A stretch of DNA of 64,000 nt from Notolepis coatsorum (lineage: Eukaryota; Chordata; Actinopteri; Aulopiformes; Paralepididae). The notes beneath the pieces were generated by a model. It was given only the letters and a program-made list of their open reading frames with translations, made no database searches and was not told where the DNA came from. Where the stretch lies: the NCBI GenBank assembly GCA_963971535.1, contig OZ020601.1, positions 22,230,191-22,294,190 of the forward strand, written 5' to 3'. The translations under genes were made by a program, and so were the position numbers. Positions 2,925-57,492 of the stretch are shown piece after piece; positions within the stretch are counted from its first letter, which is position 1, and each line of letters opens with the position of its first letter.

Positions 2925-3260
2925 AGAGAGTGACGCCGAGCGAGAGCTATACGATACAGAACGTTAGGTTATGACTATAACCAAGTTCTGTTAGTATAGC
3001 GACGCTCGGCGTCCGACGCCGCTGCAGCCCTTGATCTCGCCTTGTGGTGAAAGCTTGGGAAGGAGGCGAGTGGGTGGCCCCACCCCTGCTTATATGGGTA
3101 AGCTGATAGGGGTGTGGTCAGACAAATATTGGGATTAAAGGTACATTGTGGTCTTTATTCAGTGCGTGTGCACGTGTGCGAGGACAGTGCAGAGAGTGAC
3201 GCCGAGCGTCGCTATACTAACAGAACTTGGTTATAGTCATAACCTAACGTTATCTCTGTT
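2925..3260. mobile_element. DIRS-like terminal inverted repeat, fossil
   Basis: A stretch of about 53 bp (ACGTTAGGTTATGACTATAA, ending GACGCTCGGCGTC; about 2960-3012) recurs inverted at about 3195-3252 with a spacer of about 180 bp. Fish DIRS elements have ends of this kind (AACGTTAGGTTA...). No coding part is recognised alongside. Confidence 0.55.
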
Positions 3261-5441: not shown

Positions 5442-8134
5442 TTTATTCCGTTTCTGATAGTGTTGTTGATACACACATCCCAACCGCCTTACAGTTCATT
5501 GCTGAAATAAAACAAAACAAGCCAAAAGTATATAAGCCTGGAAGAAAATGAAAACCCTGCAAACCAGAGGCACCGTACACATGACTGCTCTCATGTCTTT
5601 TATTTACATTCAACTCTGTTGTCCTTGTTTGCATACAGTAGAATGTACAGTACATACATATATGCCACACATTCCCCTATGAACCTGTGTTTACATGGTT
5701 TGTTTCACACCAGACAGAGGTTTATTCACCCTGAATAAGAGGCACTGAATGTCTTTGCTCGTTTCTGAAAGAAATCAATGAACCCATATACAGTATATAT
5801 ATCCTAATGTATATTGTAAATGTTTCATCTCATACCCGAGTATTTTGGCAATGGTTCATTAACCAACAAAACATTAAAATAATCTCATCCAAAATGTGTA
5901 GGTATAGAAAAAAAAAAAATGAAATCATAAGACACGTTAGAATTCAATAGTAGGCAATACATTCGCTATACCATGCAATTTACAGGACAGATGGTTTCAT
6001 GTGAGGCTATAAGTCTTAAAAGAACACACCAACATTTTGGTAAATTAGCTTATCATCTTCTCCAGAGAGAGACAAGAAGATAGATACCAGTTTCCTCTCT
6101 GCTTAGCACAATGAATGGAAGCAGACATGGCCGGTTAGCCTTCAGGAGAGGTGTTAGTTGGACAATGCCTAGGCTAATCGGCTGGTATCTATCTTCTTGT
6201 CTCTCTCTGGAGAAGACGATAAGCTAATTTCCCAAAATGTTGGCGTGTTCCTTTAAGGGCTTTTTCTGACCAATACTATTTTTGGGATGGAAAAACAAAA
6301 ACAAAAACGAATTTATCGTCTGCTGCCAACAAACCGAGCGAGTAATGCGACGCTGTGTCATTGGGTTTGTACATAACGTATTCCTACACAGTACAGAGGA
6401 CTTGAGATACGACCTATAGGCTGACGAGTGGCTTCGGCTGCTTCAGAACTCACCGTATGTTCTACATACATACAGTATGTACATCATACTACATACTGTT
6501 GGAGCTTACTGCTCAGTACATGGAAGGCAGTATGTGCGACATACTACATACTCTGAGGACCTACACACCCAGGTGGAAGTGGCCGTTCGTAACACCAGAA
6601 GAAGAAAGAGATTGAGTGACAGTTGTTTCCACTTGCAATCAGGAGGATCTACTGTCAGTTTAGCTAAAGAGAAAACACAGAAAGTATGTTTCTGTGGCCA
6701 GTATGCTGGAATCTTCCCTCACCTGGAGCCGGAAAACAACACGTGAAATTACCTGGCACGAACGATGTGGAATTGAAACAATCGTGTAGCAACCGTCCGT
6801 TCCATACTTGGCGGTGGTGCTTTTGGTCGCATACAGTTTCTGCATACCAACAGGTCATATACTGAAAATTGTATATGACTTAGTATGTAGTGTGTAGAAT
6901 TTGGAAGCAGCATTTGTTTGTCTGATAAAACGCCAAAGAACCTTGTTGCCTCAACGATGCCTGAAAACAAAATAAACCCAATGTGAAATCAAGCGTTTGG
7001 TTTTTGTAATACAGTATCTGTATCGTTTCCGTTTTTACCTTCTGATGCCAAACTCTTTGGCACACTATTCACTGATCGTCTACATTCACATTCAGACACA
7101 CAAAGTACAAGTCATTCCACCACAGCAGGCTGCAAATTAAATAACTTAGCTTTTTCCTACTTTGTGCTAATTCTTAAAAAAGAAGAAAAAAAGAAACGCT
7201 ATCTCACACACACACACACACACACACACATAAAAACAACAAACAAACAAACAGCCGTCAGCCGTTCAGTGCTGAGCACCGTCCAGCATGCAGAAAGTCA
7301 ATGCTCATTCCCTTCATGCAGTGTCTCAGTCTCATGGAAGTGATGGTGGTCACTTCCTCTCACTCGTTTCCCTCCCTTTCGTCTACAGGGCACGAGTGTT
7401 GAACACGGTCTAAGCCCCTCCTTTATAAAAAGAGAGCTGAGCTGATTTTTAAATATTCTAATATTAAAATTGTACCCCTAGCTACATGGGGCAAAAAAAA
7501 GTATAATTTGTATTCTCAGACAATTATCTTCTCTTCTATCTGGGAGATATTTAGATATAAGTTACTAGTTTCAAATGAAAAGCACGGTTAGGTGACGCCC
7601 ACGGAGATACATACTGTAGTAACATTCTCAGCGCCATATTCCATATATTCCAACCATTCACTTCTAAATCATTTTGTGACATCGCACAGAGAATTGAAAA
7701 CTATTCCCCAATTCATTAGTGACATCACAAATAGAATTAAGACCCATTATATTCCACATTCTTTGGTCACAGAATTAATTATTTTCTAAATTCCTTTGGC
7801 GACATTGCAGAGAGAATTAAGAAATATTATAATCCAAATTCATTAAGTGACATCAAAGAGAATTGAGAATCGATATATTCCATATTCTTACATCACACAC
7901 GGCGGTCTGCGTCCCCCCTCCCCCTTCTCAAGAAACAGCAGCTGCATGAAAAGCCAGAAAGCCCAGGAGCGACGATGATGATGATGATGATGATGATGGA
8001 TTGTGTCAAGTCCTTCCCTTCACACAACCAGCTCATATGTAGATACTGCAGATAATAATCAGGTAGTACAGGCTCCATCAAGAGCAGGTTAAAATAAAAA
8101 AGCTGGGGAATACGCTTCCCGTTCCTATATTGCT
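5442..8134 (-). other. Region 3' of usp45 stop, possible long 3' UTR
   Basis: No coding exon seen. It is AT-rich with several minus-strand AATAAA signals (for example 5442-5447 and 5598-5603), a TTAA hairpin element at 6020-6252, a CA run near 7208-7231 and a GAT run at 7969-7998. It could be 3' UTR down to one of the AATAAA sites, but the true polyadenylation site cannot be told. Confidence 0.35.
6020..6252. mobile_element. TTAA hairpin MITE
   Basis: 233 bp, TTAA at 6016-6019 and 6253-6256. Almost the whole element is a long inverted repeat of about 75 bp per arm (ACCAACATTTTGGTAAATTA against CCAAAATGTTGGCGTGTTCC). The arms contain GAAGATAGATACCAG. It lies in the region 3' of usp45. Confidence 0.85.
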
Positions 8135-8265: not shown

Positions 8266-11200
8266 CTGAAACACACACAAAAAAGGGACACAATGTACGT
8301 TAACAATCGCAGCAAACCAGGAGTTGAACCAACAATCATTGCAGTCGTGGGTGAGTACTCTCACCACTATCTAAGTATGATTATAGTTGGAGGTTACTTT
8401 TAACATTGGCTTAACGGTTATGGTTTAGACATTAGGGTTAAGGTTAGGGTTCGATCCCCAGCAAGGAGAACTTAAAAGTTTTCTGAAAACGTAAAAGGTT
8501 TATATATTTTGAATATGTAATATACCGGTATGTACTTATTTGTAATATGTACCCATGTTAAATTTTTTATATAATACCTAAATATATTACTTATATAATA
8601 TACTTATGTATTACACTATTACTTTCCTGTGGTCGATTAGTAGTTTATTTACATATATTTGATGGATAAGACATACATTCATCAACATTCTTAGAGTAGG
8701 AACACAAATATGGGGTTATTTATATACGTATTCGTTTACGTTTTTTAGTTTGATCCACTTTTTCTCCTGTTTTTCTGTGTTTTTCTCCCATCGCAATTTA
8801 GTCGTTATGTCAATTCCCCCCTCCCCTTCCTGGTCGTTGCTCGCATGTGCCCCCCACTGGTCGGTCTAGGGAGCCCTGAAGTGTATCAGATGCTTCCTCC
8901 GAGACATAGGAGACAGCCAGCAGCATCTTTTCACCTGCCAGCGCGGACTCTCATTGGCCAGGTGTAACGTGTGGGAGGTCACACTACCCTCGCCATCTCC
9001 GTCCCTCGCTGTGCAGGCGCCCTGACCGACCTGTAGGAGTCACTGTTTACAACGACCAGAATACCACCCCACCGGCTTCCCTCCCGCTGACTGCCAATTG
9101 AGCCAGTATGACGGCCGGCCAAGCCGGAGGCAACGCTGACAGCCGGATCCGATACCAGTGTCTCTCGCGTTGGTGACGAGCGCTTAGTCTTAGTGTATTC
9201 TAGAATATTCCAGTAAATGTCTTATCACGGAATCTTTATATTTTCCTTGAAAACGAGGGCTTTTCAAAATGCTATAAAACGAAAATGAACCGATAAAAAA
9301 ACAATCCATTTCGACAATGTTGACTGCAAACAAGTCATTGATAAGCGACGGGCAGATTAGACACATTGCCATAATTTAAAACATAGATTAGGCGTTTTTA
9401 ACGCTAACATTGAAGTGGGTGGCGGCATTCAAGGAGGTTCCGGGGCACCGAGCTCCGGCACGGAAAGTGTTAACCCATTACCTGCCAAAAACGCTGTTCA
9501 GCGTTATTGCCCGCCATGCGTTGTCTGCCAATATCGCTGTACAGCGTGTTTCAAGTTCATATTTCATATTTCACCCACGGAGCCTTGTCATATGCTGCGG
9601 GAGCCATCACAACTCTGCAACGCTTCAAAACTGCGAGTTGCCAAACCGGAAATGCCCGTTTCAGCTCGGTCCGTCCCCTAATTCCGTCCGGCCACTTGTT
9701 TATCGTCCCGGGACTCAATCCACACACCGTGGACATGTACAAACCGGAACTGGATCGCCTCGATCCCCACCACATAACTGGGATCTGTTTGTTCCACTCT
9801 CATCGCCCAACGGTACGAGGAGACGGACGTGAGTTTCAGCGTTTTTCTTTATCATTTTCGATACAAACTGCTCTGATCAATATATCACCCATACTACATA
9901 AATCATTTAACGTCGGTCACGGAATTATAAACGACCCCCCCCCCCTCCGTTCACCCGCAGATGATCAGTCATAACGTTTAGGACCATGTACAGTTTACAT
10001 TTTTAATATAGCATGGATCGGTATCAAACTGCATTTGATAATCTAATATATGCATTTATGCCTATATCTCACGTTCTATGAAATACTGCAGAAAACGATA
10101 AAAACATATTTATACTCTAGACGGTATTTTCGTATAAATGTGTGAATGAAAAAGTAAAACATTCCTACATCCTGAACGATAGATAATTGATGTTGAATGG
10201 GCCATAGTAATGTCAATTTAGCAATACAATTTAAAAAGTTATAGCCCTGCAAAGAAGGTGAACATCTCCATAGACAAATAGCGCTGGCAGAGAATGGTTT
10301 AGGATGATCAAAGTGGTGGCAGAGAATGGGTTAATGCTGGAGCGAAAATGTCATGGTAGCGTACCTGGAAAGAGGCTAAATAGGGCTCCAAAGTATTTTG
10401 AAGGGAAACATTTTATTAAGCTAACTCCATGTTTATTTAGGCTAATGTTAGCAAGTGCAAGCCAATATATAATATAATATAGTTAACATTAGTGAACTAA
10501 AGTTCAGCTATTTTGTCTCATTTGTTCATCATGTACACATACATTATATATTCTCCCTTAATTTATATACATTATATATGCTCCATTAATCTATAAACAT
10601 TATATATTATTAATCTATATACAGTGATTATGGTTGTGTCTATCACCTGACCTCTATCATCTCCAGCTCATGGTTCAAGACAATGTCCCAACAACAACAA
10701 CTATGCCAGCTAATTACCAGCAAGGACAACCAAATCCAAGAGCTCCTTCATAGACTTTTCCAATTACATTTCCACACCATTTTGAAAAGCAGGATTCTCT
10801 CCTTGAGAAGGAAAAGAGAAAATAACATTAATCTCTAGCCAACAAAAACCTCTATTGGTCTTTCCTTTATAAACGCTGTCTTCAAGGTCACACAGAATGC
10901 GGCCTGTTCTGCGACAAACACAGGCGGAAGGCCTTTACAAAACAAGCACATATATAATTCAAGGTAAAGGCACAGAAGAAAAACAAGCCAGAAAGGTATT
11001 GAGAATGAGTCAAGAAAGTTGTGAGTGTAAGCCAGACTGACCCTTACCCGACAGGTTCCTGCGTTGGTGTTCAGCCTTTCTCTGGGGAGAGCGCACCTTC
11101 ACGTAGGCTGTGTAATGGCCCCCGCGCATGGAGCCGCTGTGCTCCACGATCCCATACAGGCTGTAGAGGACGCGCTCACCAGCTGCCAGGTTGGTATACT

Positions 11201-14200: not shown

Positions 14201-17200
14201 AACAGGTTTTAATGAAAGTTCTTATTTCATCTTATCTTAGTGGTGGGTTACCTTGCATGTGGCAGAACAGAAGGGAGCCAGATCCAGCACCAGGGGGAAG
14301 TCAACATGACGGTTCACCTTCCGTAGGTTCATCCCTGCCTAGAAACACAAACACAACACACATCAACACACATGTCTGCATGTGGCACACATAAGGATTA
14401 GGGATGTCCGATATTATCGGCCGATATTGGCATTAAAATGTGATGTCAGAAAATATCGGTATCGGTTTTCAAATAATTTTTTTTTTTTTTACATTTCTAT
14501 AACCTTTATTTACCCAGGCAAGCAAGAACAAATTCAGATTTTATTTATTGTCAAAAATATTCATAATGTTGTGTTAATTCCACAACAAGAGATATGTAAT
14601 GTTAATTACCTGAAATTATTCCATTTTGGGGGGGGCCCTGCATATATCAGTATCGGTTGATATCGGTATCGGAAATTAAGAGTTGGACAATATCGGTATA
14701 TCGTTATCGGTAAAAAAGCAAATATCGAGCATCACTAGTAAGGATACATTCAAGCTAGGACCGCCCCCCTCACAGCTAGGACCGCCCCCCTCACAGCTAG
14801 GATCGCCCCCTCACAGCTAGGACCGCCCGCCTCACAACTAGGACCGCCCCCTCACAGCTAGGCCCGCCCCCTCACAGCTAGGCCCGCCCACTCACAGCTA
14901 GGCCCACCCCCTCACAGCTAGGACCACCCCCCTCACAGCTAGGACCGCCCCCATCACAGCTAGGACCGCCCCCTCACAGCTAGGACCGCCCCCTCACAGC
15001 TAGGACCGGACCCTCACAGCTAGGACCGTCTCCTGACAACTAGGACCGCCCCCTCACAGCTAGGACCACCGCACCCTCACAGCTAGGACCGCCCCCTCAG
15101 AGCCCATTCATCGGTTGGTTTGGCCTTACTAGCGGAATTCGTAGGTTTGTTAGCTGCGCTGGTTGCAGGGGTACCAGCATTTATAGTTCCGTGACCCTTC
15201 TGCTAATCCCTCCTTCCTCCACATGAGAGCGAGGTAAATGTGCGGCTCGAGGCGAGTGAGCCAATCCCAGAGGTTACATGTTGGGAGATGAGCAGGTGGG
15301 CTGCTTGGCCTTTATGCTGAGACCAGTTACACCATCAGGACAGTCCTGGAAAACATGTGGCATAACCAGAGCACCAACAGAATGCAGAATTAGCGCTGTG
15401 CGATGCTCACCTGGTGGAAGCGCTTGAGGTGGAGTGTGATGACAGGAGGCAGGGAGGAGATCAGCATCTGTTTCCTGGCGCTGGTGTAGACCTTCTCTGC
15501 TTTCTTATCTGGTGCGTGGTAAGTGAAAAAGGTTAATTAACACTATGTGACTATACGCATGCAGCTCTAACATTGAACACAGGGTGAAGGATTAATGTAG
15601 GAAGTGGATGTAGGTTCCATAGCTAGGTTCCAGGTGACGAGAATCGGGTGTGTGGAACGGGAAGCAGGGACAGTTTTTGACAGTGTTAGTGCGTCAGTGT
15701 GGCTGGTGTGCGCAGTATATCATGGCGCGGTATATCATGGCGCGGTATATCATGGCGCGGTATATCATGGCGCAGTATATCATGTAGTGGGGGACTGTAC
15801 CATTTGAGGCTAAATAAGGGTGCTCTGCACAACTACCATAAAAGGGAGCGTTTTCCACAAATATGTATATTATTGGCCCATCTCTTGGGTCTTTGGAGTT
15901 TGATAGTATTAAATAATGTATCAATGTATATCATGCAATGTTAAAATAGGTGAATATTTGTGTAGCGATGGTGTCACCTGGACATGAGGCTCCACCACAG
16001 ACAGGGAGCGAGCTGCTCTTACTGGAGGAGCCGCTCTTGCGGAGCTGCTTCTGCCTGCGCTCCGTGCAGCTCTCACACAGCAGCTTGTTGTTCCCCATCA
16101 GCAGCTCTACGGAGGTGAACTGGTGGAGGCAGGACTGGATGGAACACTCCTTGGAGCAGGGTGTGTAGCTGTGGGACAGTGCCTGGAACGCCCCCTGGTG
16201 GTGGTGGTGGTGGTGATGGTGGTGCTGATTGTCGCGGGGGTTCTGCTGCTGAGCGTCTCCCTGCTGCTCCGGGGGGGAGTGCGTGGACGGGGAGCAGTCC
16301 CCGGGGGAGGGGGCGAGGTTCATCTTAGAGACGGCGCTGACGAGCTGCTCCACCACCCCGCCCTGCCTGGGGGAGGGGGCCAGCGAGGGGCAGGGGGCGG
16401 GGGAGGTCGAGGTGGAACCTCGGGCGTGGTGGCCGGAGGAGGGCCTCGGGGTCCACTCGCTCTCTGAGGCCTCGCTGTCTGCGTCGTTGCTGCTGTCCTG
16501 AGGGCCAGAGTCTTTCTCGCTGCCGTCAGAGAGGCTCCCGGCCGCCGCCATCCTGCACACGGAGATGCCACGAGCCGCGCCGCTGGCCACCGCCTCCTCC
16601 TCTGGCCGCTCCACAACGCAGCCCGCTCCCTTCTCCTCCAAGCAGCCCGGAGACCTCCTGCCCTGTGGCTTCTGATGGGGGAGAGTTGACGACATTACTT
16701 CATATCAATAATAACAACATGGTACACAAAGGAAAGGAAAGGCGCAGTTTTTTTTGGCCAAAATATCATCCAGAAATGGCCACTTTTCTGGGTGCCTGTT
16801 AACTCATTCAGTCGGGTTTTAATTGTTATTTCTTTTATTAGCTACCGTAATTCCTCTAATAGTAACCGGGTCTCAAATACAAGCCGGGTCTCTATTAATG
16901 GCCGGGTGCGCTCTTGAGCTAAGCAATTATAAGCCGGCCTCCTAATACAAGCCGGGTTACTAATATACTGAGCTGCATACTGAGCTAGTTACTTGATTTC
17001 ACTTTGAAAACGTTGAAATGACCAGTGACCACCTGTAATTGCACTGTTTACTATTTCATACAGTACTTGGTTTCAATAAATGAACCCAGTACATTTTACT
17101 GGGTTCAAACTGACACAAAATGTTGATTTATTCATTATGATCCGTTTGAAAATTTGAAATATAGGCCTCCCTCTTATACAGGCCTCCTCCTAATACAAGC

Positions 17201-20200
17201 CTGGTACCCGCTACAGTTGAAACAAATACAAGCCGGGGTTACTATTAGAGGAATTACGGTATATCCATTCATTTTCATCCATCCAGCCTGATGTCATCAT
17301 TGGGAATGGGTCTGAGCTCGCAATAGGGCAAATACCGCCGTTTCTTTTCTGGGACGATCTGAGCCATGCGGGCGGGGTTTAAATACTCCGGCAGGACTAG
17401 CGTTTACAACGTTACATCTGCGATGCTGCTCCCCCCCCCCCTTCATATGCAATGCCGGGCAATGTGGGACGGACCTCCATGAGCAGTATTTGGAATGGCG
17501 ATCAGATAATTGGATTATTTCTTTTGTATTACTTCACATACCAGGTAAGGACTCTATTATATATAAAATCTTGCGTTGATCTGATATTTCTTTCTACCCC
17601 GATCGAAGCTGTCTGTGTGTGTGTGTGTGGCTGTTTACCGTTGAGTGGGAGGAGGTGGCGGGGGGAGCGCCGCGCTACGAGGGCCATTTCATGTATGCAT
17701 GAGGAAGGATAATAATGATAATCTAGCGTTGATTTCAGGAAGATTCGATAATCAGGCGAAGAATTACAACGTGTTTAGTGTATTCCACTAAAGGGCTATT
17801 ATCGCGTCTTTTCCTGGGATTACTAAGAATCACCAAAACTATACTCATATTCAAAACGGTATAAAATGGAAATGTACAGATGAAAAAAACAATCTGTTTT
17901 GTGCATGTTGACTGGAAGCAACTCACTGACAATCGACGGGTGTATTAGACCCATAGCTATAATATAAGATATATTTTAAGCACTCGCAAGTGAACAAAGC
18001 GCCCCATTGACTTACAGCGCTGGCGTAATAGCGCCCTCTGGCGCCCCGACCCGTGGCGCAGAATGAGTTAAGACGTTAAGACAAAGGCCGTTGGTTGGGC
18101 TTAAACTACCCCAAAAACGTCTCAACATTGTGCAGTTGGTGATAGCTCTGAACTTTGTTGTTCCACAAAGTCAGCGTCCATCGGCACAACAACCCTAACA
18201 CACACACCACACCCCCACCCCCACACACATACACACACACAGGGATTAAAGCAAAAAATTATCTCCTGACTGAACTTTTTTTCAGGCCAAGTCATAATTA
18301 TTCTTATTTTAACCTCCACTGTTTTTTTTTTTAATAGCGTCAGCATTTTAACACTTTGGATGCCACGCCCGAGATATCTCGGGTTTACGCCCCGACCGTT
18401 CCATCACGAGATCTTTTTTTTTTCTTTTTTTTCTTATTAGCGATCTGAAATCATATTGCATCAAGCAAGCCTACCGTTGGATATCCAGGCAGCGCCGGCG
18501 CTCAGATGTGAAAAAAGCACCCCCTATCGTCTCCCAGATGGTAAATCACCTTTTTGGATTGGACTCAATGAAAGTGAATGGGAGAACGGATTTCTGACTC
18601 CACATTTGACTTCTCACTGATGTAACCGGGGTCTACCAGAGTTCATTCTGGAACCTTGGTGCCACGGCGAATATGTGTTATACTGTACACACGCTGGATC
18701 AATACAATTATCGGTTTTTCGAATGGTGATCAGGAATTGGAATATACCATTTGGATACCATCTGATGTCAGGTAAGGAATCTATGTTATCAGTCTTAGGA
18801 TAATCAGACTCGTTTTCACGGCGATATAAGCGTTTCCACTATATGTGATATTGCTGTTTCACTGTAAAAGCCATCAGGAAATAAGAGCAGCGATTATCAG
18901 CGAGCGGCACGAGCATGCGTGCGCACACATATACTATTGATCATCTAGCGTTTATTTGAAAACGATTCATAAATAGGCAGACAAATGACAACGTTCTGGA
19001 ATATTCCAGTAAAAGACAATTATCATCATAGGGGTTTTTTCCGCGAAAACGAGTGATTTTCAAAATGCTATCAAACGGAAATGAAGCGATAAAAAAACAA
19101 TCTGCCTTGACAATGTTGACTGGAAAATGAGTCTTTGATAAGCGACGGGCAGATTAGACACATAGCCATAATTTAAAACATAGATTAGGCGATATTAAGT
19201 TAACCCTTTATTCGCCAATGACGTGTTCCCACGTCATTCTCCGCCATGCGTAATCTGCCAATGACGCCGTAAGGCGTCTTTGAGATCAATATTTCTAAAT
19301 ATCAAAAAATCAGTGATAGCAATCATATTTTACCCACGGAGACTTGAGATCTCCTGTTGATCTCCTCTCAACTCTCCAACGGTTCAAGAGCGCCATCTGG
19401 TGGCCGATCGCCCAAACAGGAAGTGACGCGCCGGAAGTGGTGCTCATCCATATTCGGTCCGGGCACTCGCTATCGTTAGCGGGACTCTAGCTCGACACAC
19501 TGGACAGCGATCAGTTGCCAATAACTCGATAAACAACTGATTTGGACGTATATACTATTACCGTAATTCCTCTAATAGTAACCGGTATTCAATTAAAAAC
19601 CGGGTCTCTATTAAGGGGAGACACTGCAGGTGAATAGGGTAAAAAAATTAACTAATAGATATCACAATGAAACTTCCCCAGTTGATTACTTATATTAAGA
19701 CAAGACTTTTTTGTATTACATGTTTTCTGAAATTGTATGTTTAAATATGCAAATGAGGCATGATCTACTTAAATATGCACTAATTTGCATATAATTCCAG
19801 GACAGAAATCTGAACATTGGATAAAGCCATTTTCAAACTTATAGTTTCATTTTGTTGACATATTAGAGCCAAAGGTTATTACAGAGGGGATTTTGGATAT
19901 CTCTTTTTATCACTCCATAAATCAGAAAATACTCCATTCAGTCAATTTTTATGGTAAAATTCCATATTTCGCCATGTTTTTAGGAATAAAATGTGATATA
20001 AATCAGGGTATGAATGCGATATCAACAAACCCTTCTGTAAATACATTCAGAACATAGATATGAATAGAACTGGAAGGTTTGGTGTATGTGAGTGCTACTG
20101 AAGTGGAGATTTCTGGCTCAGAGTATGAGGAAAAACTCTTAAAACTAATTTTTGGGAAAACGCCTTCAAAGTTCTGTATTGTAAAATGCCATACTTTTTT

Positions 20201-23200
20201 TTTTAAACAGATATTTACAAACACAATACCTAATCAAACCATTAGTAATAGACAACCTAAACACATGCCTGATAACTGAATAATAATAATGTTATTGAAC
20301 TGAACATAACTACACACAGGCTACAAACAGTGTAGTACAGTGTAGTACCCCCTAATAGGCAAAACATATTTGAATAGATATCACTATGAAACTTTCCCAA
20401 TTTGTTATGTACATATAAACTAAGAAAAAATATATTGCAAGTTTTCTGAAATGTATGTTTATATATGCAAATGAGGCAAATGATGTAAAATAAACAACTA
20501 AATGTGTGTTATTGACGTTTTATTGTCACTAGTTTCATAGAAGACATGTTTAGGAAGCAAAATATAACAAAATCTCAAAATCAACAAAAAAAGTATATTT
20601 GACTATTCACCTGCAGTGTCTCGCCTTAACACTTTGGCTGCCAGGAGCCGTGTTAAAGCGTCATTCCCGGCCATGCTCAAGTTGCCGAGGACGCTTTACA
20701 GCGTCTTTAATATCAATATTTCAAAAATCTGGAATCGGATTCATATTTCCCCTCCGCTGGCCTGAGATCCACCAGGAGGACCCACTGAGCTCTCTGGCGG
20801 TTCAGGAGCGCCATCTGGTGGCCGATCGGCGCAATCGCTTAACAGGAAGCGCAGTAGAGGTTTTGCTGGTCGGCCGTATTACTTCCGGGCACTCGGTATA
20901 GGTTCCGGCACTCTAGCTCGTCACACTACATAGCGATCGATTGCCAATAACTCGATAAACAACATGATTTGGACGTATATACCATTATACAAGCTGGAGA
21001 TGGACCGGGTAAATCGCCATCCCATAATGATAAAATTTCTACTCTACGATGATCGCCCAACGGCGCGCGGAGACTGGGGTGAGTTTTAGCGTGTAAAATT
21101 ACCGTCTTCGATACTAGCTGCTATTATCAACATTTGACCCACATTAGATGATTGGTATAACGCTGCCCACGGAATTATAAACGCCCCCTCGCCCATCCGG
21201 TCAACATCAGATGACGTGTAGTAACTTCTAGAAGTACGTCTAGTTGGAATTTTTTATATCGCGCTGATTGCCATCAAACTGTATTTCATCATCAATATAA
21301 TGCATTTGGGGCTATATATCACGTTCTGGAGAAAGCTGCAGAAAGAGATGAAAACATACTTACCGTACTTTTCGGACTATAAGCCGCGGCTTTTTCCCCC
21401 ATTTTTCGACCCTGCAGCTTATATAACGGTGCGGCTTATATGTGGACAAAACCCGAAAATTTAAATATTGCTTTTTTTACTGCATTGAAATGTTATTTAT
21501 CTGGTCCCTTATTTGCTAAACTTAATACAACTTGTAAATGAGTTAATGTTATTTGTCCGACAGTATTGTGTCCCAATGGGAGTCACTCTGTAGAGGTGGG
21601 AACTTAAAGCTCAATATAAGAACGGCCATGCACCACCACTCACAGAATCGAGAAAGAGCAATCAATCTGTCAATCCTTTCCGTGTCCGGGCCGGGTGAGG
21701 TTTCCCGTGTTGAGTCAAATTAAGCCGCAGGCTCCACTCCTTACATATGGTAATTAAACATTAAAACACATGCGGCTTATAGTCCAGTGCGGCTTATATA
21801 TGTACACATCATTCAATTTAGCTGCTGCGGCTTATAGTCAGGTGCGGCTTATAGTGCGAAAAGTACGGTATACATGATTAGACCATACTTTACTATGAAT
21901 ATGTGAATGAAAAAGTTTAACGTTGCTACACAATGAACAATACATATAGGACTTTGAATGGGCCCTAATAATGGCAATGTAGCAATAGAATTTAAAAAGT
22001 TATAGCGCTGCAAAGAAGGGGACTTTCTCCATGTTAAATAGAGCCGGCAACCTACGGTTGATAATGAATTTAACCCATGGCAGCCAAAGTGTTAATGACC
22101 GGGTGCGCTATTGAGCTAAGCAATTATAAGCCGGCCTCCTAATACAAGCCGGGTATATTTTGTTATTGTTGTTATATGCTGGCCTGGCTGTGCAGTAAAT
22201 ACCATATAATGGTATGTGTTAATGTTTACCAAGAGAGTAAGCCTACCTCAGAATTGTATAAAACGAAGTTATTATTATTATTATACCAGTATTGTGATTG
22301 CACTATTTTACTTTATTTTACTTTTTTTGACCACCTGTAATTGCACTGTTTACTACCGTATTTCATACAGTACTTGGTTTCAATAAATGAACCCAGTACA
22401 TTTTACTGGGATCAAACTGACACAAAATGTTGATTTATTCATTATGATCCGTTTGAAAATTAGAAATATAGGCCTCTCTCTTATACATGCCTCCTCCTAA
22501 TACAAGCCTGGTATCCGCTACAGTTGAAACAAATACAAGCCGGGGTTACTATTAGAGGAATTACGGTATACAACCTGGAAATGGATCGCATATATCAACA
22601 TCCCATAATCGAGAACTTTCTGCTCCACGCTGACCACCCAACGGTCAGAGGAAGATGCGGTAAGTTTCAGCGTGTTTGAATATTATGATCCATATAAACT
22701 GCTGTGATCTATGTATCGCCCATACTAAATAAATGATTTAACGTCGGCCACGGACTTATAAACCCCCCCCCCCCCCCCTCCGGTCACCAGCAGATGATGA
22801 GGCAGGACGTTTAGGACCTTGTACAATTGAAAGTTTTAATATGACGTCAATCGGTATCAAACTACATTTGATGATGTAATATTATGTATTTATAGCTATA
22901 ACTCGCGTTCTGCAGAATGCTACAGAAAACGATAAAAACATATTTATACTTTAGACCGTATTTTAGTATGAATATGTGAATGAAAAAGTAGAACGTTGCT
23001 ACATCCTAAACGATAGTTACTTGACGTTGAATGGGCCATAGTAATGTCAATTTAGCAATACAATTTAAAAAGTTATAGCCCTGCAAAGAAGGGGAACATC
23101 TCCATAGACTTACAGTGGTGGCAGAGAGGGGATTAAGATCAGAATAATCCCTGGCAGATAAAGGGTTAACATTGGAGTGGGTTTGGGCATCAAGGGGGTA

Positions 23201-26200
23201 ACAAGGAAAACATGGCGTGGCATACAAAGTGTTAAGGGAGCCTACTTGTAGAGCCTACTGTCCTGACTGTGACTATAGACCCTACTGTTGTGGTTGTTCT
23301 GCCAGGCAGGGAGGCTGTGTGCTGGAGAGCGTGAATGCAAGTCTTGTGGCTAGCTTCTGATTGATGGCGAGCTAGCACCCTTTTCCAATTACTTTGAACC
23401 ATGAACTAAAAAGCTTGTTATCATACAAACAAGGGACTAAACACGTTTCGCACAGCCGTAAAATTTTTTTGAATCCTCAGTGTTTCCCACAGGATTTAGT
23501 GAGACTGTGGTGGTGGGTTAACCTCGGCCCCTTTAAGAGGCTAGATCTATGATGAACTTTGTGCTCAAAACACAAAATCGACTAGACCAGGGGTCGGCAA
23601 CCTGCGGCCTCGAGGCCGCATGCGGCTCTTTAGCCAATCAGCTGCGGCTCCCTGGCCCAAAATAAATAAATAAATAAACTTTTTTTATTTTTATTTTGGA
23701 GATCGATGTCATACTGTGACACTGAAATGAAAAAATATTTCATCAACTAAGATATTTAGTCAACAAAAGGCTTACCTGTATGCCTGATATGTGGTGCGAA
23801 ATTTGCAAACAACGAAAAATTTACTTTTTATTTTATAGATTTTCCACAAATAAGGGAATGACTCTAATAGAGCTGCATAGTTCAGGGTTTTATTTCAAAG
23901 TAGGTCTACACATGCCAGTGTTTCTTCTCATTTTCTGTGTTTTATTTCAAAGTAGGTCTACACATGGTAGTCTTTTTTCAAAGTGGACTACTTTTTATTT
24001 TATAAATGTTCCACAAATAAGGGAAGGACTCAAATATACCTGAATAGTTCAGGGTTTTATTTCAAAGTCGGTCTACAGACACCAGTGTTTTGTCTCCTCT
24101 TCTGTGTTTTATTTAAAAATAGGTCTACACAGCCAGAATTTTTTCCTCTTCATAAGAGTTTGAGGTTTTCCTTTGTTATAACAGGTAAAAACATCAATAA
24201 AAAGTCAAAACATTTTCTTTTTGTTGCTTTATAATCCCATTAATGCAACAAACTGTGTGCTATAAGTATAAAGTATAATAAATCGCAAATTACTTTGGGT
24301 ATGCAATTGTCAGGCGTTTTATGCTAAATGTGGGGTATGCTTGGGGATATATAAAACATTATACACTGTGTTATCTTCATTTTAAGGGTAAATAGGTTGT
24401 GCTGAGTATTTTATTTTGTGGGACGGGGGAAAAGTGGCTCTTTTGATAGTAAAGGTTGCTCACCCCTGGACTAGACACTAGATTAGAGCATACATTTGAG
24501 CCATCAAAGAAATTAAGCAAAAGTGGTTACCTGTGTTGAACTAGTTTATTTTTTAGAAAATAAAATAATAGACTGGATTACTAATATGACTACCACTACT
24601 GCCAATACTACTGATACATCCCTATTGGCAAACTTTATATTTAAAAAATATAAATCAAAATATTATATAAATATAATCAAATTGACGGAAATCCGTCTCA
24701 AGACGGAACGCTTTAATGCCTGCACACACCTGTCCACCCAGCTTCCTGGTGTTCTTATTGTGGCAGTGAGCTGCAGAGAGCAGCTCCTCGCTGTGAGAAC
24801 CGTGGACCTCCTGCTCTCTGGGGTTCTTTCCGAGCCTTCCTGGGTTGGACGGTTTGGATATCTGCACACAACACAGTTCAAAACAACATCAGGACAATAG
24901 CAAAGCACCGATACCAAGACTGATATCAAGACCAACACCAATACTGATAAAGACTGATACCAAGACTGATTCCAATACGGATATCAAGACTGATATTAGA
25001 TCAAGCAAATAAACTTGTTAGATCTCTCCAACGGAGAAAATGTGATTATATCTCAATAATATCCGTTTAAATCTATAGACAGTTTCACTGGAATTCTGTT
25101 GCTAGGTAACAGTTTGGACTAGGGTGTTGTATTTCCTGTATTGCATCAGCAAACATTTAAACAGGAAATAAACATTGGGTCCTTGAGAATGTTATCGGTG
25201 TCACTTTGAAACCATCTCTACTGTTCAGTAAAAGCGATGGATCTGATCTGTACTTGTATTGGCTGATACAGAACTTTTAGGACTCGATATCGGTAGTGGA
25301 AACTGGAAAGGTGTCATGGGTGCATCCTTACAAGTAAATAGGGCTGTACCGAATGCTTCGAAGCTTCATCATTCGAATTTTTTATTTTTAATAAAAATCT
25401 TATTATTTTTTTTATATATATATATTTTTTATGTGTCTATTCATTCAAAATAAAAATAAATATGACTAGTCATACAAATTTAAATAAAACATTTATCATA
25501 AATGATGTAGCCTATCTGCATCCGCTTGGCACTCAGCGTTCCATCTAATCAAGACGTCACCATCACTTTTGTACCAACTGTGCCCTTATTGGATTATTTA
25601 TGTTGACGAAAATTATTAGTTATATTCATTAAAGAAAGTTGATTTAATCAAATAAAAAAAAACTAATTTAATCAGATTAATCACTTTATTCAAATTGAGG
25701 ATTTAGTTTGAGGATATAAAAAAATATATATATATTCGAAGCTTCCATTGTGCAAGTCCCTTCACCTAGGCAAGACTGAGTCGATCGCATGGAAGTTTAG
25801 TTTAGTTTAGTTTATTCGGATCCCCATTAGCCATTGCCACAGGCACAGGCTACCATTACTGGGGTCCACACAAATCAATACAATACAATAAAATCAATAC
25901 AATACAATTAATACAATACAATAACACAATACAATACATCTCAATAACACATACAAATATTATATAATAAAATATCTAAGTTCACCAATCACACATACCG
26001 ATCTGATGATATGATATGTCCCCTCAAGTTTGCTTGTACAGAAGTATCGCCCCAAATACTTATAAACTCCTCACTATCCCTCCAGTGACCACCTCCATCA
26101 CAGCTGTCTTCCATGTTTGTATTCACTGAGTGACTCCCGCCAGCGCAGAATTGTGACAAATGTCAACTAGAGTGACGTAAAAGTTGCATGAATTCTGATA

Positions 26201-26917: not shown

Positions 26918-29900
26918 ACACACACACACACACCTACACTATAACTTTATCTTCTTTTTGCAGCTTGTGCGCTGGAGCACCCGTCCCTACTGTCCTTGAG
27001 CAGTGATCTGGACAGGTGATCTGCAGCTCTCCTGTCTCTGCAGCTCTGTCTTCAAGGCTGTACTCCGTTTTGTTCGCAGCCTCACTTTCCAGGTTTTCCA
27101 GTCAATGCCTTCTGAGCACAGTTGGTGCTTCAAGTGTTTTTCTTCTTTACCCTGACTTCAGTTCATTGTGTCCTTCCATGCCATGTCCATGGCCTGTCAA
27201 GTAGAGATGCTCGAAGCAGGAGAGATCAGACACATGTGGGGTACCTCTCAAACAGTACGTTCAGATACAACGCAAATACTTATATTGTCCTGCTGTTGTG
27301 GTTGCCACGAATCTCCCTTCTGTAGCTTCTTTAACGGAATAAGAAAACTAGAGACAACAGGAAGTGAAAGCAAGACGCTGTGACCTTTGTTATATCTAAT
27401 ACTAGCCTATTGGATAACAGGGCGAAGCTAGCGTGTAGCCCTGATCAGTACACAACCTGTTGGCCCAAACAACCAAATCAGAGGGAGGAACACTAAAGGG
27501 CCTCCCATAGTCGAGCAGACTGTACACAGAGCAGACTCCGCGGAGGTCCGCGCGGACTCTTTGAGCTTTTGATCTCAGCGGACGTCCGCGCGTCAGAAAA
27601 TAGGAGCTTCGCACTTTGCACTCTGCTGTGGGTCTGCTTTGACTCCCTTTGAGTCCGTGCGGACCTCCGCGGAGTTGCTCTTTGTACAGTCTGCTCGACT
27701 ATGGGAGGGCCTAAAGGTTCCTGTTAAACCCTAAAAGGATTAACAAGGAGACGGAGGTGTTCATTGTGTGTAAAATAACACCAGCCAAACATCTGACAAC
27801 TCAAAGGGCAAAATGACAAAGAAAAGCCTTGTTCTAGCCTAAAAGGGTATAGGGTGGCCTATACGCAGGGGTTCTCAACCTTTCTGCTGCCAAGGCACCC
27901 GTGTCCAATAAAATATTCCAGGGCACCCCTACATGCGATAAAGACTTTTCCGGTCCTGTCTTTTTTGCTACAATGATGACAAAAGTGCTTGCTTTCAAAA
28001 TAATGTTTATTTAACCCATTGAAACCGGGAAACACATTTGTGTGTATATGCAGGCTATATAATGCATTATTAGCAGGCGTTTCAGGTCTAAATGTATAAA
28101 TAAATATAGCAATAGTGTGACCATTTCTCAAACAGAAAATCATGTTTTTTTTTTTTAAATACAGAAAAGGATCACACAACATGATAACAGTCTGGTTTAG
28201 CATGAGAACACAACATGATAACAGTCTGGTTTAGCATGAGAACAGAACATGATAACAGTCTGGTTTAGCATGAGAACACAACATGATAACAGTCTGGTTT
28301 AGCATGAGAACACAACATGATAACAGTCTGGTTTAGCATGAGAACACAACATGATAACAGTCTGGTTTAGCATGAGAACACAACATGATAACAGTGCTGG
28401 TTTAGCATGGGAACACAACATGATAACAGTGCTGGTTTAGCATGGGAACACAACATGATAACAGTCTGGTTTAGCATGAGAACACAACATGATAAGTCTG
28501 GTTTAGCATGAGAACACAACATTGCAGCTGCACTGTTTGACTGGGGCAATCTCAGCGGTCGAATTGGTACTGGAAGGTACTGAATTGGTATTGGTAACTG
28601 TAACCTGTTTCGATGGACGAATTAAAAACTTGTCCATTTTGTGTGAAAATTCAGCTTTGCGGTTCACGATGGAAATATTATTCTAGTGAGGTGACGATTG
28701 ATTATGAGTGCAGAGTGCCTTTTACCGTTTATCTGTTAAATACAGTTTTCATTCATTCATTCATTTACATTTTGTATCATAATAATCATAACACAGCGGC
28801 TGATACTCACTTGTTCTGCGAGTAGACCATCGCTGTCGGAAGCGTGTAATTAGCACTTTTCAGAAGCTGTGTGGTCCGGTCTTGAACTTTCCATAACGTG
28901 TCTCGATAAATCCATTTGATTAGATCCAGCACTGAATGCATTTAGTGATTATTATCACAACGACGATTGCGATAGCCGCTTTGCATTTCCTTGATAACGG
29001 ACATAGGACTGCTCTGGAAATGCGTTGGAAAATCTGTTGGTAAAAGTAATGACGCCTGCCGCGGACCTTAAGTTGGTGAAGTTTCTATAATAACTTTACG
29101 AAACGTGTGATCGATTTCTTTTTTAGTTCATGTTATTAGATTAGGCAATTATTGTATACAAATGAAGCACTAGATAGACTATTTGTTTAGTTAAATACTT
29201 GCAGGGCTGTACGTTAACTTTTTTTGCACATAGCACTGGTGCTACAGATGTTGATAGTTTTGTAGCACAGGCCAAAATCTTGTAGCACAAGTATAAAACG
29301 TGTTATATTTGTAACAGTCACAAATGTGCCTATTGTATTTGTGTTATTTAGTTGCAGTGCCATGTTTGGCTGTCATTTTCATGCTGACAAGTTGACGTCA
29401 CACAGCCAGACACGTTACGTGTAAGGAATTACATTACAAACATTAAAAATTTTTTTAGCTCTTCCAGACATTTAAATGAAAAACTATTTATTGTTTTTAA
29501 TACAAATAGACCTCCTGTTCACTATAAAGTGCCACGTTTTGATATATTGAGCTTTAAACTTTAAGTAAATTTTTTGGAACACGCAACCCCTTCCTCTCCC
29601 AAACCGTTCCTGCAATTGTTTTATGTTGCATGATGATCATGCATACATTTATTATGTATTGTATTTTTTATGTTTAAATATCAACATCATCTGTCTGTCC
29701 ACCCTCAGTACATTTACTATCAATATAATATACTTGTCTGACTTCATCATATCTTTTCAAACGCACACACACAGAGGGAGAATGCCCCCCCCCCCTCCTC
29801 CCCAGTCCTCCTTCCCAGTCCCCACTCTGCTGTTCTCTGTCGCTCTGAACAGGGTTTTAGCTTGTAGTTAGCTTATGCTAACGGGACGTTAATTCCGGTC

Positions 29901-32900
29901 TTAAACACGACGTGGTCATAAAGAAATGGCAAGGATTGCAAAGCATGTTATATGCATTTGACCCGTTGCGGAATAAAACAGCAAGGATTTGTTTTGGGTC
30001 GCGAAAACACTATCCTTGCTCTGTTGCAATGTGCGTGTTCCAGACGCTACTGCTGCTGAGACGCTACTGCTGTGTGGAGATGCATCCTACTGGCTGTGTG
30101 CTGTAGAGCGGATATGAGTCACGACACCACGGATTTTCAAAATAAGAGTATCATAATGAACTGAACGTTGCTAGCTGTCGGAGCCTAGTTATTATAGCTG
30201 GAGCTGCGCTTGGGCAGAAATGAGACTCGCCACAGGATTTTCAAAATAAGACTGTTGTCATTCTATATTTTTAAAGAAACATTCCCATTCCCCTGGCAGC
30301 TCTCCGCGGCACCCCTGTGTGCCGCGGAACCTCTGTTGAGAACCGCTGGCCTATAGGACCCAGTTACGAATTGTAACGGTTGCAAAAGGGGACCTGCTTT
30401 ACGTATGCGGATATGAGCATTGACCCTGAATGAAATAGGATAAGTATTTCACAGGGAAATTGACAAGTGTCTGGAGGCTCAGTGAAGCAGTTATGAATTG
30501 TAACCCGAGCGTGGGCGACAAGCATTTCAGTGAGTAATTATGCATAGAAAGCCCCTACCAAAGGCAAGGAGCCCAGAAAAATCCCAACACTAGTTTGAAC
30601 TAGAAGATGAAGTAGGGGCTCTCTCAGACATGTCAAACAGATATAATCTGATGAAAGGACAAGGGGAAGACAAAGATGCTGCCGTGCAGATGTCTTCCAC
30701 TGAGACCCCTTTGAGCAGGATAGAGGCAGCCATTTTAAGTGTGGAGTGGGACCTGACCTAGACCGGTGGAGATAGTCCTGCGTGGGTGTAGTGGGGAGCA
30801 AGGCCCTCACACAGCCAAACTGATGTGTGTTCCACATATATAGACAATAGACATAGCAGACGCATGTTCTTTTCCTCATCATTAGAATGGGGAGGAGGGT
30901 AGAACACCTTCAGGACAATGTTGCTGAAATGAAAATAGCTCCTAATGTTCTTAGGGGCTAAAGCAGGGTTAGGTCTCAGAATAGCACTGCATCTCCATTG
31001 ACAGTCAGGCATTCCGGAAGGACTGGCAAAGCACACAGCTCACCAATGCGCTTTGTCGAGGTGATGGTCCAGAAGCGCCGTCTTGAAAGACTCAAAGAGG
31101 CCTGTTCCAAAGGCACAAAGGGGGATCCCATTAGATTGCGTTTCACTGGTTTAAGACGCCTAGCTCCTTGCAAAAAGTGCTTAACCAAAGGATGGCTGAA
31201 AAGTGTCATTATCAAAACCCTGGTGAGTGACAGGTATATAGTAGATAGTAGACCTTCACAGCCGAGAAAGACAAAGTGTCAAACAGTAACAGAGACTGGA
31301 GGAAAGAGGACTGATACCAGAGGACAGGAAATCAGATCCAGAGACTTGGCCTTACACCAAGATTACCTCTATGTATATGATTTCTAAGTGTTGTGAAATA
31401 CCGTATGTAAGCGGCTGTGTTTACTTTTGTTCAATGTGTTTTCATGTGGCAAGAGGACACAGACACTCTTTGGAGCTGTGTGTCAGCTGGTTGTGAAATG
31501 TCCTTTAAATGAAATATATATATCATTCATACATATACACTATTTTCTACCACAAAGCATGCACGATTTGAACAGTTCTGATGATAGCAGGATTGATGTC
31601 TCTATTCTCGTAGTTCAGTCTTTCACAAACCAGACCATCAGAGGACAGGCATCATCCAAGGACAGGCGGATGGGCACACACTGCTGTGCGCCTGGGACAG
31701 GGCTTCCTGAGACCATGGTGGAGCTGCCTGCATCAGGTCGGAGAACCAGCGTGCTGACTACCTGTCCGGCACTATCAGATGAGAGTCTGGCAGTCTAGTG
31801 TCACCCAGATCCTCTGCCGCTTGGTGAAGAAGGGGGGAGCGAACTCCACCACGTCTATTTATGTAGACTGCCAAGGTCAGACTGTTTGTTCTGACCAAGA
31901 CATGGCGATCTCTCACTAGGTCATGAAAAGCTAGCAGCACTGCTCTGAGCTCCAACACATTGATGTGAGGGGTAGAGGGGTCTGTCCACATGCCCCCTAC
32001 TGCCTGTGATCAGACATGTCCCTCCCCAGCCTGACAGGAAGACAACCATGAAAACCATCATGTGAGGTGGTATGCTGCCCATTGGGAACACTGATGGGGG
32101 AACCTTTTTAAGTTTCCCTTTCTGGCGCTCATGGTCGGTTTCTTGCTGAGAAAAGCACATCTGTAGTCTGCGCATGTGCAGTAGACCCAGGTGGAGCACT
32201 CAGGGGGCTGCAGCCGTCCTGCCCAGCAGGCACAGCGCTGACAGAGCAGTGACCGGTAGGGGCGTTTCTAGCATCAGACCTTTAGGGGGGCTCAGCCCCT
32301 AGAGCAGTAGCATAATTTCACTAAATGCCAAGGTATGGCAAGGGAGGGTGCGGGGGGGCTGAAGGGGGGGTTCCCCCCCCTTGGTGGATTTTATTTGTCA
32401 AATCAGTTGTGCAATAGTCAATTTTGGTGAGTTGTTTCTATACAATTCACTTATGAATTAGGTAACATTAATGAACAACTACAATATTAACACTTTAATC
32501 GCCGTTGACGCTGGAACACGTCATTCCCCGCCATGCTCATTCTGCCGATGACGCTGGACAGCGTCTTTGATATCAATATTTCAAAAATCTGTGATCAAAA
32601 TCATATTTCTCCCCCGGAGACATGAGATGTACTGGTGAGCCCCTATCAACTCTCTAACGGTTCAAGAGCGCCATCTGGTGGCCGATCGGCGGATCGCCCA
32701 GGGAAGAAACAGGAAGTGGAAGCTGGTGCTCATTTCAATTTGGTCCGATCACTCGGTAATCCCAGGACTCGAGCTGATCACGACGGATAGTGATCCGTTA
32801 CCAATAACTCGATAAACAACATGATTTGGACGTATATACTATTATACAACCTGGAAATGGATCGGATATTTCAACATCCCATAATAGAAAAAATTCTGTT

Positions 32901-33542
32901 CCACGCTCATCTCCCAACAGCGAGAGGAAGCTACGGTGAGTTTCAGCGTTATTTTGTAATGTCTTCTATACTAACTGCTCTAATGATCATATCACCCACA
33001 CTAGATGAATGATATAACGTTGCCCACGGAATTATAAACGACCCCGCCCCCATCCGGTCATCATCAGATCATACGTAGTAACTTCTAGAAGTACGTCCAT
33101 TTGATTTTTTTTTTATCTCGCACAGATTCCTACCAAACTGTATTTGATCATCAATATAATGCATTTAGGGCTATAAATCAAGTTCTGGAGAAAGCTGCAG
33201 AAAACGATAAAAACATACTTATACTTTAGACCGTATTTTAGTATGAATATGTGAATGAAAAAGTATAACGTTGCTACACCCTGAACAATAGATATAAGAC
33301 GTTGAATGGGCCATAGTAATGTCAATTTATCAATAATTTAAAAAGTTATAGCCCTGCAAAGAAGGGGAACTTCTCCATGTTAAATAGGGCTGGCGAGGGA
33401 TGGTAAATTATGAATTTAACCCCGGCGATCAAAGTGTTAAGGAGACAACTACAGTATGTAAGTAATAAACCTATTTTTATTTATTTTTTTATTCCAGTCG
33501 ATCATAATGATCATGATCATATTACGGAGCGCTCACTGCGTT

Positions 33543-42704: not shown

Positions 42705-42841
42705 TTAAGCATGGAATTTAGTCAGATGTTAGGCCTTTTAGTCAGATGTTAAGCATGGCATTTAGTCAGATGTTAGGCCTTATAGTCAGATGTTAAGCAT
42801 GGCATTTTAGTCAGATGTTAAGCATTTTAGTCAGATGTTAA

Positions 42842-44227
42842 AGGCCCACTTGCATGTTGTATTTTTGTTCAATAAACAATGTGACTAGGCCAACGGTGAC
42901 TTTCATGAAGAGGGGAATTTTTTTTTCGAAATTGACCCAGTTTTAGCGTTTTTATCAAAAAATGTGTCCGCCCAACCACAATCACCACGCACATGGATAT
43001 TTTAATCCATGGTTCATAACGTGCGCGTGTCATCTTAATGATGACATCACACAAGGTACAGGGCAGCAGGGGGCGCTGAGAATCACAGGCAGGTAGTGGC
43101 AGGAAGCAGAGAGCCTTCTTGTTACTACTAGGCTAGCCGAGGAGCTAGTATCTGTTTCACCTAACACTATTGCTCCGTGATCATAGCCATTTATCTCTAA
43201 AGCTAACCACTATTTGTAAAAGCCACAACCACGTTACCATATTTGTAAATATACTAATGTAAATCATTGTGTCGTTGTACATATTGTGTATATAACGTTA
43301 GTAGCTAAGTTAGCTAGCTTGCTAGCCAGCATTCTCGAAAATCCTAACATGCCCCGATTTAAAATGGTTCTCTCCTCTTTGTATACCTTTGTCCTCACAA
43401 ACAAAGTATTCTGCCAGGGAACTTATGGACACGACAGTAGTAGTAGTTATAAGGTGTTTGAGCTCGTAACATTAACGTTAGTTAGCTATCGTGGTAGCGC
43501 GTTTCGTGACCGAGTGCATCAATCATGAAAGGGGCTACTATCGTGCTATCAACATGCCGTGACGTGTAGCTTGCTAGCCAGCATGATGCGTGCAGCGCTT
43601 TGCCCCACAGGTCTGAGAAGAGGACCTGCACATTTTACTCGTTCCCGAAACCCTTTTACATGCCCCGATTTAAAATGGTTCACGACAGTAGACATAATGC
43701 TAACGTTAGCGGGGTAACGTTAGCCAGAGCCATATAGCCAGCTTGGTACTATGACCCGTGACGGGCATAAGGCGACAGCCTAACAGACCAATAGCGCTGC
43801 TATACTGAACAACAGGCTGCCTAGTGGTACATGTAGTTATTTTTTTACGACATTAAAACCCTTATAACTACCTTGTTTCAACCAAAAATGCAGTTGTAGC
43901 TGGTCCATCAAAGTCTCTCTGACGATTAAACGCATTTGCGTCTTGTAAGGCGTCCATTTGGATCAAGGAAATGGCTTTCTGCACTCGTCAAACTCCATTG
44001 TAGTGGATGAGAAGTAGGGGAAAGTTACCTTCAGTGACGTCACGGCACTGATAGCGTCTGATAAGCTTTTTGATTGGCTCCATACATGTTATTCATGCGT
44101 GGACATTTTTAACCCTTTCTAAGTGGAATTTCCGGCGTCAAATGGAAAAAAATAAATAATGAAATTAGATACCAATGATGTAAACTACCCATAATTGAAG
44201 AGTAGGGTTTAACCTGCAAGTGGGCCT
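42842..44227 (+). mobile_element. TTAA element family G
   Basis: 1386 bp between TTAA at 42838-42841 and 44228-44231. TIRs are AGGCCCACTTGCA and, inverted, AGGCCCACTTGCA. The interior is not recognised; it holds many GCTAGC and GTTAGCTA motifs and no clear ORF. It is joined directly to the family D copy that follows. Confidence 0.82.
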
Positions 44228-44231
44228 TTAA

Positions 44232-45130
44232 CACTTTCAGTGCCCAGCACGGGGCGCACATTTAGTGCTTGAATGCCCACCATCCACTTCAATGTTAGCA
44301 TTAATATCGCCTAATCTATGTTTTAAATTATGGCTATGCGTCTAATCTGCCCGTCGCTTATCAATGACTCATTTTCCAGTCAACATTGTCGAAGCGGATT
44401 GTTTTTTTATCTGTTCATTTCCGTTTTATAGCATTTTGAAAAGCCCTCGTTTTCAAGGGAAAAAACACCCTGTAATGTAATATTCTAGAACGTTGTCATT
44501 TTTCGGCCTATTTATGAATCGTTTTCAAATAAACGCTAGATTATCGATAGTATATGTGTACGTATGCACGCTGGTGCCGCGACCTGAAAATCAATTCTTA
44601 GTTCCTGATCGCTCGCACAGTCAAACAGCCATATCACATAGGGGAAAAGCTTATATCTCCGTGAAAACAGGTCTGATTATCCTAAGACTGGTCAAATAGA
44701 TTCCTTACCTGAGATCAGATGGTATCCAAATGGATTATTCCAATTCCTGATCGCCATTCCAAAAATCAATAATTTTATTGATCCAACGTGTATATTGTAA
44801 AACGCATATTACACGCTGTACTGAGGGTCCACAATGAATCTGATCGGCTCCGGTTACATGCGTGAGAAGTAAATTGTGGATTCCGGAGTTTTTTTTTCTC
44901 ATCCATTTTCATTGAGTCCAATCCAAAAGGGTGCATTACCATCTGGGAGACGATAGGGGGCGCTTTTTTCCACATCTGAGCGCCTGATGAGGCTGGTTTA
45001 CCAACGGTAGACTCGTTGATAAAATATGAATTCAGATCGCTAATAAAAAGAAATTCACGAGAATTCTCGTGATGGGCATTCAGGGGGCGGGCTGATAACC
45101 AGAGATATCTCGTGATGGGCATTCAAAGTG
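44232..45130 (-). mobile_element. TTAA element family D, uninterrupted copy
   Basis: 899 bp between TTAA at 44228-44231 and 45131-45134. Terminal CACTTT in both orientations. Palindromes are TCACGAGAATTCTCGTGA (45055-45072) and GAGATATCTC (45102-45111). On the minus strand an exon-like stretch (MAIRNWNNPFGYHLIS) ends at a GTAAGG donor near 44709. Confidence 0.87.
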
Positions 45131-53581: not shown

Positions 53582-53585
53582 TTAA

Positions 53586-57488: not shown

Positions 57489-57492
57489 TTAA

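Follow-up and report, generated by a model that had tools for sequence, protein, structure and literature searches.

A five-level nest of six short DNA transposons in a predicted intron of the fish Notolepis coatsorum

Nesting of transposable elements has been stated for diverse eukaryotic genomes, and the tools REANNOTATE (PMC2672092), TinT (PMC3014933) and TRANScendence (PMC5657132) deduce the order of arrival from the pattern of interruption; in medaka, two elements, one nested in the other, are reported to have a regulatory role (PMC5789577). Here we describe a nest of six short elements, termed D, C, E, A, B and H, in a predicted intron of Notolepis coatsorum (GenBank assembly GCA_963971535.1, contig OZ020601.1, positions 22,230,191 to 22,294,190 of the forward strand). 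This stretch of 64,000 nucleotides is referred to as the window, and all coordinates count from its first letter. The logic of deducing order from interruption is the same as in the three tools, but the worked cases consulted there are mainly retroelements, whereas all five levels here are occupied by short elements bearing the marks of DNA transposons; in addition, empty sites and private mutation loads were measured for the shells. We consider it very probable (about 0.93) that this intron was invaded successively by six short DNA transposons, all of them apparently non-coding.

The outermost shell D covers 18348-23235 including a TTAA on both sides, and its own sequence (18352-19203 and 23170-23231, ~0.92 kb) is interrupted by C (19200-23169), which is seated in a TTAA of D, has TTAA on both sides and keeps its own sequence at 19204-19560 and 22569-23165. 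Within C lies E (19559-22568, TA on both sides; own sequence 19561-19614 and 22096-22566), and within E lie two elements that each have TTAA on both sides, namely A (19611-20629, with the ends GGGGAGACACTGCAGG) and B (20626-22095), which have the TTAA at 20626-20629 in common. B belongs to the same broad family as C and harbors the innermost element H (21361-21870, TA on both sides). Overall, six short elements, all listed on the plus strand, occupy five levels (D > C > E > A/B > H). End-pair search gave inverted ends of 22 nucleotides (95%) for D, 19 (89%) for C, 25/25 for E, 27 (96%) for A and 18/18 for B, and those of H extend over 36 nucleotides at 86%, or 27 at 96% in another measure. The six boundaries drawn by a first-pass annotation of this DNA match the sequence to the base, and the inverted ends and TTAA or TA duplication that it ascribed to each shell were found for all six.

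A stricter end scan of the window yielded 11 TTAA pairs (at least 13/16) and 27 TA pairs (at least 15/16), compared to 0 or 1 TTAA pair and 0 TA pairs in ten first-order Markov shuffles. It recovers D, A, B, E and H and misses C, the ends of which match at 12/16; several pairs on its list are cross-pairings of related ends or lie within palindromes or simple repeats. The terminal motif is CCCTTT at both ends of C and CACTTT at both ends of D and B. No transposase was recognized in C and its contents, where the sole stop-to-stop frame of at least 90 codons is one of 115 codons at 20554-20901, which spans the junction between A and B and was not run against the protein library. Short subterminal palindromes are visible by eye in C and B (19215-19290 and 20640-20710), and in a by-eye reading of the alignment the palindrome GACGCC-GTAA-GGCGTC of C shows a paired change to GACGCT-TTAC-AGCGTC in B.

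The arrangement is a nest in that the inner element interrupts the outer one, of which uninterrupted copies exist. When the flanks of each insertion were joined computationally and aligned to relatives in the window, the C site proved empty in both D relatives, D2 (44228-45134, minus strand; 84/89) and D3 (85/94). The E site is empty in three of four relatives, namely S32 (108/119), S56 (112/124) and B itself (103/124), the fourth, C9, not spanning it; the site of A and B is empty in the single E relative, E2 (16843-17261, plus strand; 107/115); and the H site is empty in all four relatives (S32, S56, C1 and C9; 93/120 to 110/121, each with a 3-nucleotide gap). S32 (32487-33440, plus strand) and the 5'-truncated S56 (56681-57492, plus strand) are C/B-family copies in which the E and H sites are both empty. 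D3 and C9 form a pair at 9198-10334 (plus strand), where the right part of a D-family copy, running to 9473, and a C-family copy, starting at 9470, have one TTAA in common; the C site of D and the H site are empty in this pair and the E site is unreadable. Two empty places indicated by the first-pass annotation, at 32840-32860 for E in C/B and 44270-44310 for C in D, were both right.

All six elements have copies elsewhere in the genome. First-look candidates numbered 7377 for D, 5420 for C, 4270 for B, 1957 for H, 1792 for A and 1466 for E, with a possible overlap between the B and C sets; 40 places were scored per search, from which only top hits were fetched as siblings (10 for D, 7 for C, 29 for E, 8 for A, 12 for B and 29 for H). 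The C site is empty in 8 of the 10 D siblings, being deleted in one and broken by other sequence in the other; the E site is empty in 7/7 C siblings, the TTAA used by A and B in 29/29 E siblings, and the H site in 11/12 B siblings, the remaining one carrying another insert a few bases off. The target of C reads TTAA in this copy and in 8/10 D siblings, and CTAA in D2 and D3. Exact scans of viral contigs and genome contigs for element end or core sequences gave no hits.

Mutation loads fall overall from the outer to the inner level, so the order of arrival is largely readable. Private substitutions, meaning those that occur in none of the siblings, counted with the first six fetched siblings of each element (for C six of seven, the broken sibling L005 being dropped), amount to 15/914 in D (1.6%), 7/944 in C (0.7%), 2/473 in E (0.4%), 3/1011 in A (0.3%), 1/951 in B (0.1%) and 1/506 in H (0.2%). 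A Poisson trend over the levels gives a 0.52-fold change per level (p = 7e-6), and 0.56-fold with D left out (p = 0.03). With all siblings the private substitutions are 11 (/914) in D, 1 in E, 3 in A, 1 in B and 0 in H, with a trend at p = 5e-5, or p = 0.008 without D. Compared to the sibling consensus, D differs at 20/914 positions (10 siblings), C at 12/937-938 (seven siblings, L005 included) or 12/944 (six, L005 excluded), E at 3/472 (29 siblings, right part only), A at 5/1011 (8 siblings), B at 2/951 (11 siblings, L088 being left out for carrying another insert) and H at 5/506 (29 siblings). D stands apart from E, A, B and H taken together (p = 2e-5), and the trend in consensus differences, 0.64-fold per level (p = 6e-5), is weaker than the private one. 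The test suggested by the first-pass annotation, that ages measured against genome consensus sequences should fall from outer to inner, came out favorably overall, with a private load about 2-fold less at each level.

Several points weigh against reading the loads as an age series. Only the nearest hits, 7 to 29 per element, served as siblings, and some pairs among them (L085/L087 and L046/L054) have flanks in common. Half-samples shift the values, those of B the most, to 2.0-2.6% for D, 0.4-0.85% for E, 0.5-0.8% for A, 0.1-1.05% for B and 0.8-1.0% for H. Without D, the consensus trend reaches only p = 0.08, and adjacent levels are inseparable when taken singly (D versus C, p = 0.09; E versus A, B and H, p = 0.31). 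C versus the inner four in private substitutions gives p = 0.053; moreover, six of the 12 consensus differences of C form one cluster, partly common to sibling L007, and if the cluster is taken as a single event C drops to 7/944 and its difference from the inner four is gone (p = 0.45). H is the weakest step of the series: relative to the sibling consensus it is not below its shell B (p = 0.053), though its strictly private states number 0 or 1 of 506. The earlier claim that the order can be read directly is borne out by the overall trend but goes too far in two respects. A and B cannot be ordered, because both use the TTAA at 20626-20629 and either could have been first, and nesting alone does not fix the order, because a cut-and-paste element can jump with a guest inside.

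If some shells had moved loaded, B with H or E with A and B, part of the nest would have been built elsewhere and the insertion order would depart from the nesting order. Such cargo is within the reach of cut-and-paste elements, and the divergence of H, not less than that of B from the sibling consensus, would fit it; nevertheless, we regard this history as improbable in view of the empty H sites in the B siblings and of the junctions and flanks of the elements. Junction searches were run for B-H, E-A, C-E, D-C and A-B, with 40 candidates scored in each, and full-length matches to the B-H and E-A junctions occur only here among the scored candidates. Partial hits cross the junction by a few to 28 nucleotides, the longest of them reaching 28 nucleotides onto the B side of B-H; this locus, C32:83966140, was considered as a second case of H in B and rejected, for its flank, fetched as L105, is not B. 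In addition, no sibling of E (0/29), H (0/29) or C (0/7) is flanked on both sides by any of seven families.

The other junctions recur in altered settings. The C-E junction was matched here and at one further locus, where a B-type copy carries E at another of its TAs. The D-C junction was also matched at one locus besides this one, where a C copy 86% like the present one adjoins the neighboring TTAA of D; no remainder of D was found within 300 nucleotides past that C copy. Besides this locus, the A-B junction, searched in one orientation, was matched at four others; their B copies are 89-97% identical to the present one and have differing left ends, A being complete in two and partly matched in two. 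At L101, one of the four, likeness to the present copy is 99.0% for A and 93.8% for B, a disparity that suits independent events better than the movement of a single unit. A diverged composite could be missed by such searches, a further point against our reading. Even so, joint travel of the shells is unlikely, and a single long composite that also occurs as a unit at other loci is extremely improbable. The first-pass annotation had named such a unit as what would overturn its order; the junction searches gave no sign of it, nor did the siblings, since the inner site is empty in the copies of D, C, E and B that were fetched, and no other scored place gave a full match to the E-A or B-H junction. 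Nothing in support of it was found, apart from the likeness of the D and B ends, owing to which cross-pairings of ends exist. Altogether, the nest is a case of ordinary serial insertion of non-autonomous cut-and-paste elements, an arrangement of a well-known kind.

We propose that D landed in a TTAA of the intron, followed by C into a TTAA of D and by E into a TA of C. A and B would then have come in at a single TTAA of E, whichever was later inserting into a TTAA created by the earlier one, and H would have entered a TA of B. The cutting and pasting of each element was presumably the work of a transposase encoded elsewhere, as no long open frame is seen in the elements, and a staggered cut followed by repair would have duplicated TTAA or TA on each side. 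We infer that the guests did not arrive inside their hosts.

Copies lying within the window give a misleading clock. C, B and three window relatives differ mutually by 15-33%, and B differs from its window relatives by 20-33%, compared to only 3.7% between E and its own window relative. These divergences of C and B look mostly like subfamily differences. On window copies alone, B would seem to have been old already when it arrived in E, a reading ruled out by its 2/951 differences from the genome siblings. Likewise, the sign that the first-pass annotation took as refuting its order, an inner element more diverged than its shell, would misfire if window copies were used. In line with subfamily differences, a fragment at 53582-53722 has 9/15 of the unusual states of B, with six columns in which both differ set aside; in a stricter count five states are common with B and six occur in B only. 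As a separate observation, transversions mostly exceed transitions in the D and C/B subfamilies, with a transition/transversion ratio of 0.63-0.85 in 10 of 11 pairs and 2.0 in one short pair; five control pairs resembling short interspersed elements fell at 0.93-1.67, and values of 0.62 and 1.22 were obtained for a tandem pair and a further pair, respectively. The same subfamilies keep a CpG observed/expected ratio of 0.96-1.09, versus 0.64 for the window.

The elements were compared with described families. The coral CMITEs, of piggyBac type, duplicate TTAA, are non-coding, measure ~0.1 kb and follow a CC[C/T]T terminal rule, and coral tandem arrays are attributed to replication slippage (PMC2872659). 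The TTAA elements of the nest are similar in duplication, apparently non-coding nature and inverted ends but longer, at ~0.9-1 kb. C follows the terminal rule and, judged by duplication and ends, resembles a piggyBac-type non-autonomous element, whereas D and B break the rule and are therefore filed only as TTAA-duplicating elements. Kolobok elements duplicate TTAA and have purine-purine ends, the T2-MITE end being AGGRR (PMC6004289). Both ends of A read TTAA-GG, here as well as in the eight fetched siblings, and by its duplication and ends A resembles a Kolobok-type non-autonomous element, although it lacks the AGGRR end of T2-MITE.

The excision of piggyBac is footprint-free, Sleeping Beauty leaves a CAG footprint, and TA is the target given for the Tc1/mariner type (PMC8151067). 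E and H have TA duplications and inverted ends. TA is present on both sides of H in 28/29 siblings; E has TA on both sides in this copy and in E2, the right TA being missing in at least two siblings (L029 and L030). Judged by duplication and ends, E and H resemble Tc1/mariner-type non-autonomous elements. They have in common TACCGTA ends and an internal motif, TA[C/T]AAGCCG, which was picked by eye and occurs 13 times in the window on both strands, always in E, E2 or H. A 5-bp difference between E and E2 at 22354-22360 (TACCGTA versus TA) was considered as a private excision footprint and rejected; the same state is carried by 28/29 E siblings and is therefore a subfamily trait.

A bolder suggestion, which we hold to be doubtful, is that the nest owes its depth to a few particular TTAA sites, some lying within other elements or at their ends, which would be strong repeated targets, with TTAA elements landing in or beside each other far beyond random choice. 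The TTAA at the right end of A has B-type neighbors with differing left ends at five loci. Of the 22 siblings fetched for B and D, three (L081, L083 and L092) sit at the same TTAA of a host sequence that is itself repeated (1641 first-look candidates, of which 40 were scored), B being found there in both orientations alongside D. The C-type element at the neighboring TTAA of the further D copy met in the D-C junction search is a weaker pointer. Within the window, three TTAAs are each common to two elements, 20626-20629 (A/B), 44228-44231 (F/D2, F being a further TTAA element described below) and 9470-9473 (D3/C9), compared to 0.36 expected in a tentative estimate from a rough count of 12 insertions (p = 0.006). 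The seven families cover 10.4% of the window outside the nest and 1.9-3.8% of the sibling flanks, a comparison biased by drawing the library from the window.

The nest plausibly sits in an intron of a predicted deubiquitinase gene, USP16/USP45-like on the basis of sequence matches. Exon pieces of this kind, most of them short motif hits, lie on the minus strand at about 41.1, 37.0, 36.0, 26.3, 16.1-16.7 and 11.1 kb, and from their positions the nest falls between the 26.3-kb and 16.7-kb pieces. On its low side, an open frame at 15931-16704 (minus strand) contains an exon with a USP16 match over 47 residues (E 4.5e-6); a weak UCH match is below the Pfam cut-off. The placement in a usp45 intron by the first-pass annotation is therefore plausible as to the intron, given the flanking exon pieces, and the gene may be usp45 or usp16.

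Element F, a 1.4-kb TTAA element found by the end scan at 42838-44231, has the ends AGGCCCACTTGCA. An extra shell outside D was considered and rejected: the right flank resembles the end of F only briefly, and direct alignment was unconvincing. Three short stretches, at 2965-3246, 6016-6256 and 27508-27701, have inverted ends that match perfectly or nearly so and are perhaps small palindromic elements, and a 5S rRNA-like stretch at 1708-1825 (69 bits) may be a 5S gene or a 5S-derived repeat. Minus-strand open frames at 54783-56667, among them one that weakly matches reverse transcriptase below the Pfam cut-off, may belong to a Penelope-like element. Domain matches of retroelement type occur in frames at 39028-40059 and 60302-61210 (zf-RVT; ALKBH8_N plus a sub-cut-off RVT_1).

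Over its five levels, the order of nesting agrees overall with the mutation load, which makes this nest a clean worked example. B, at 20-33% from its window relatives and 2/951 from its siblings, is a worked case that divergence from whichever copies lie nearby is not insertion age. If the doubtful repeated targeting of particular TTAA sites were true, such nests would show how TTAA transposases choose their targets.

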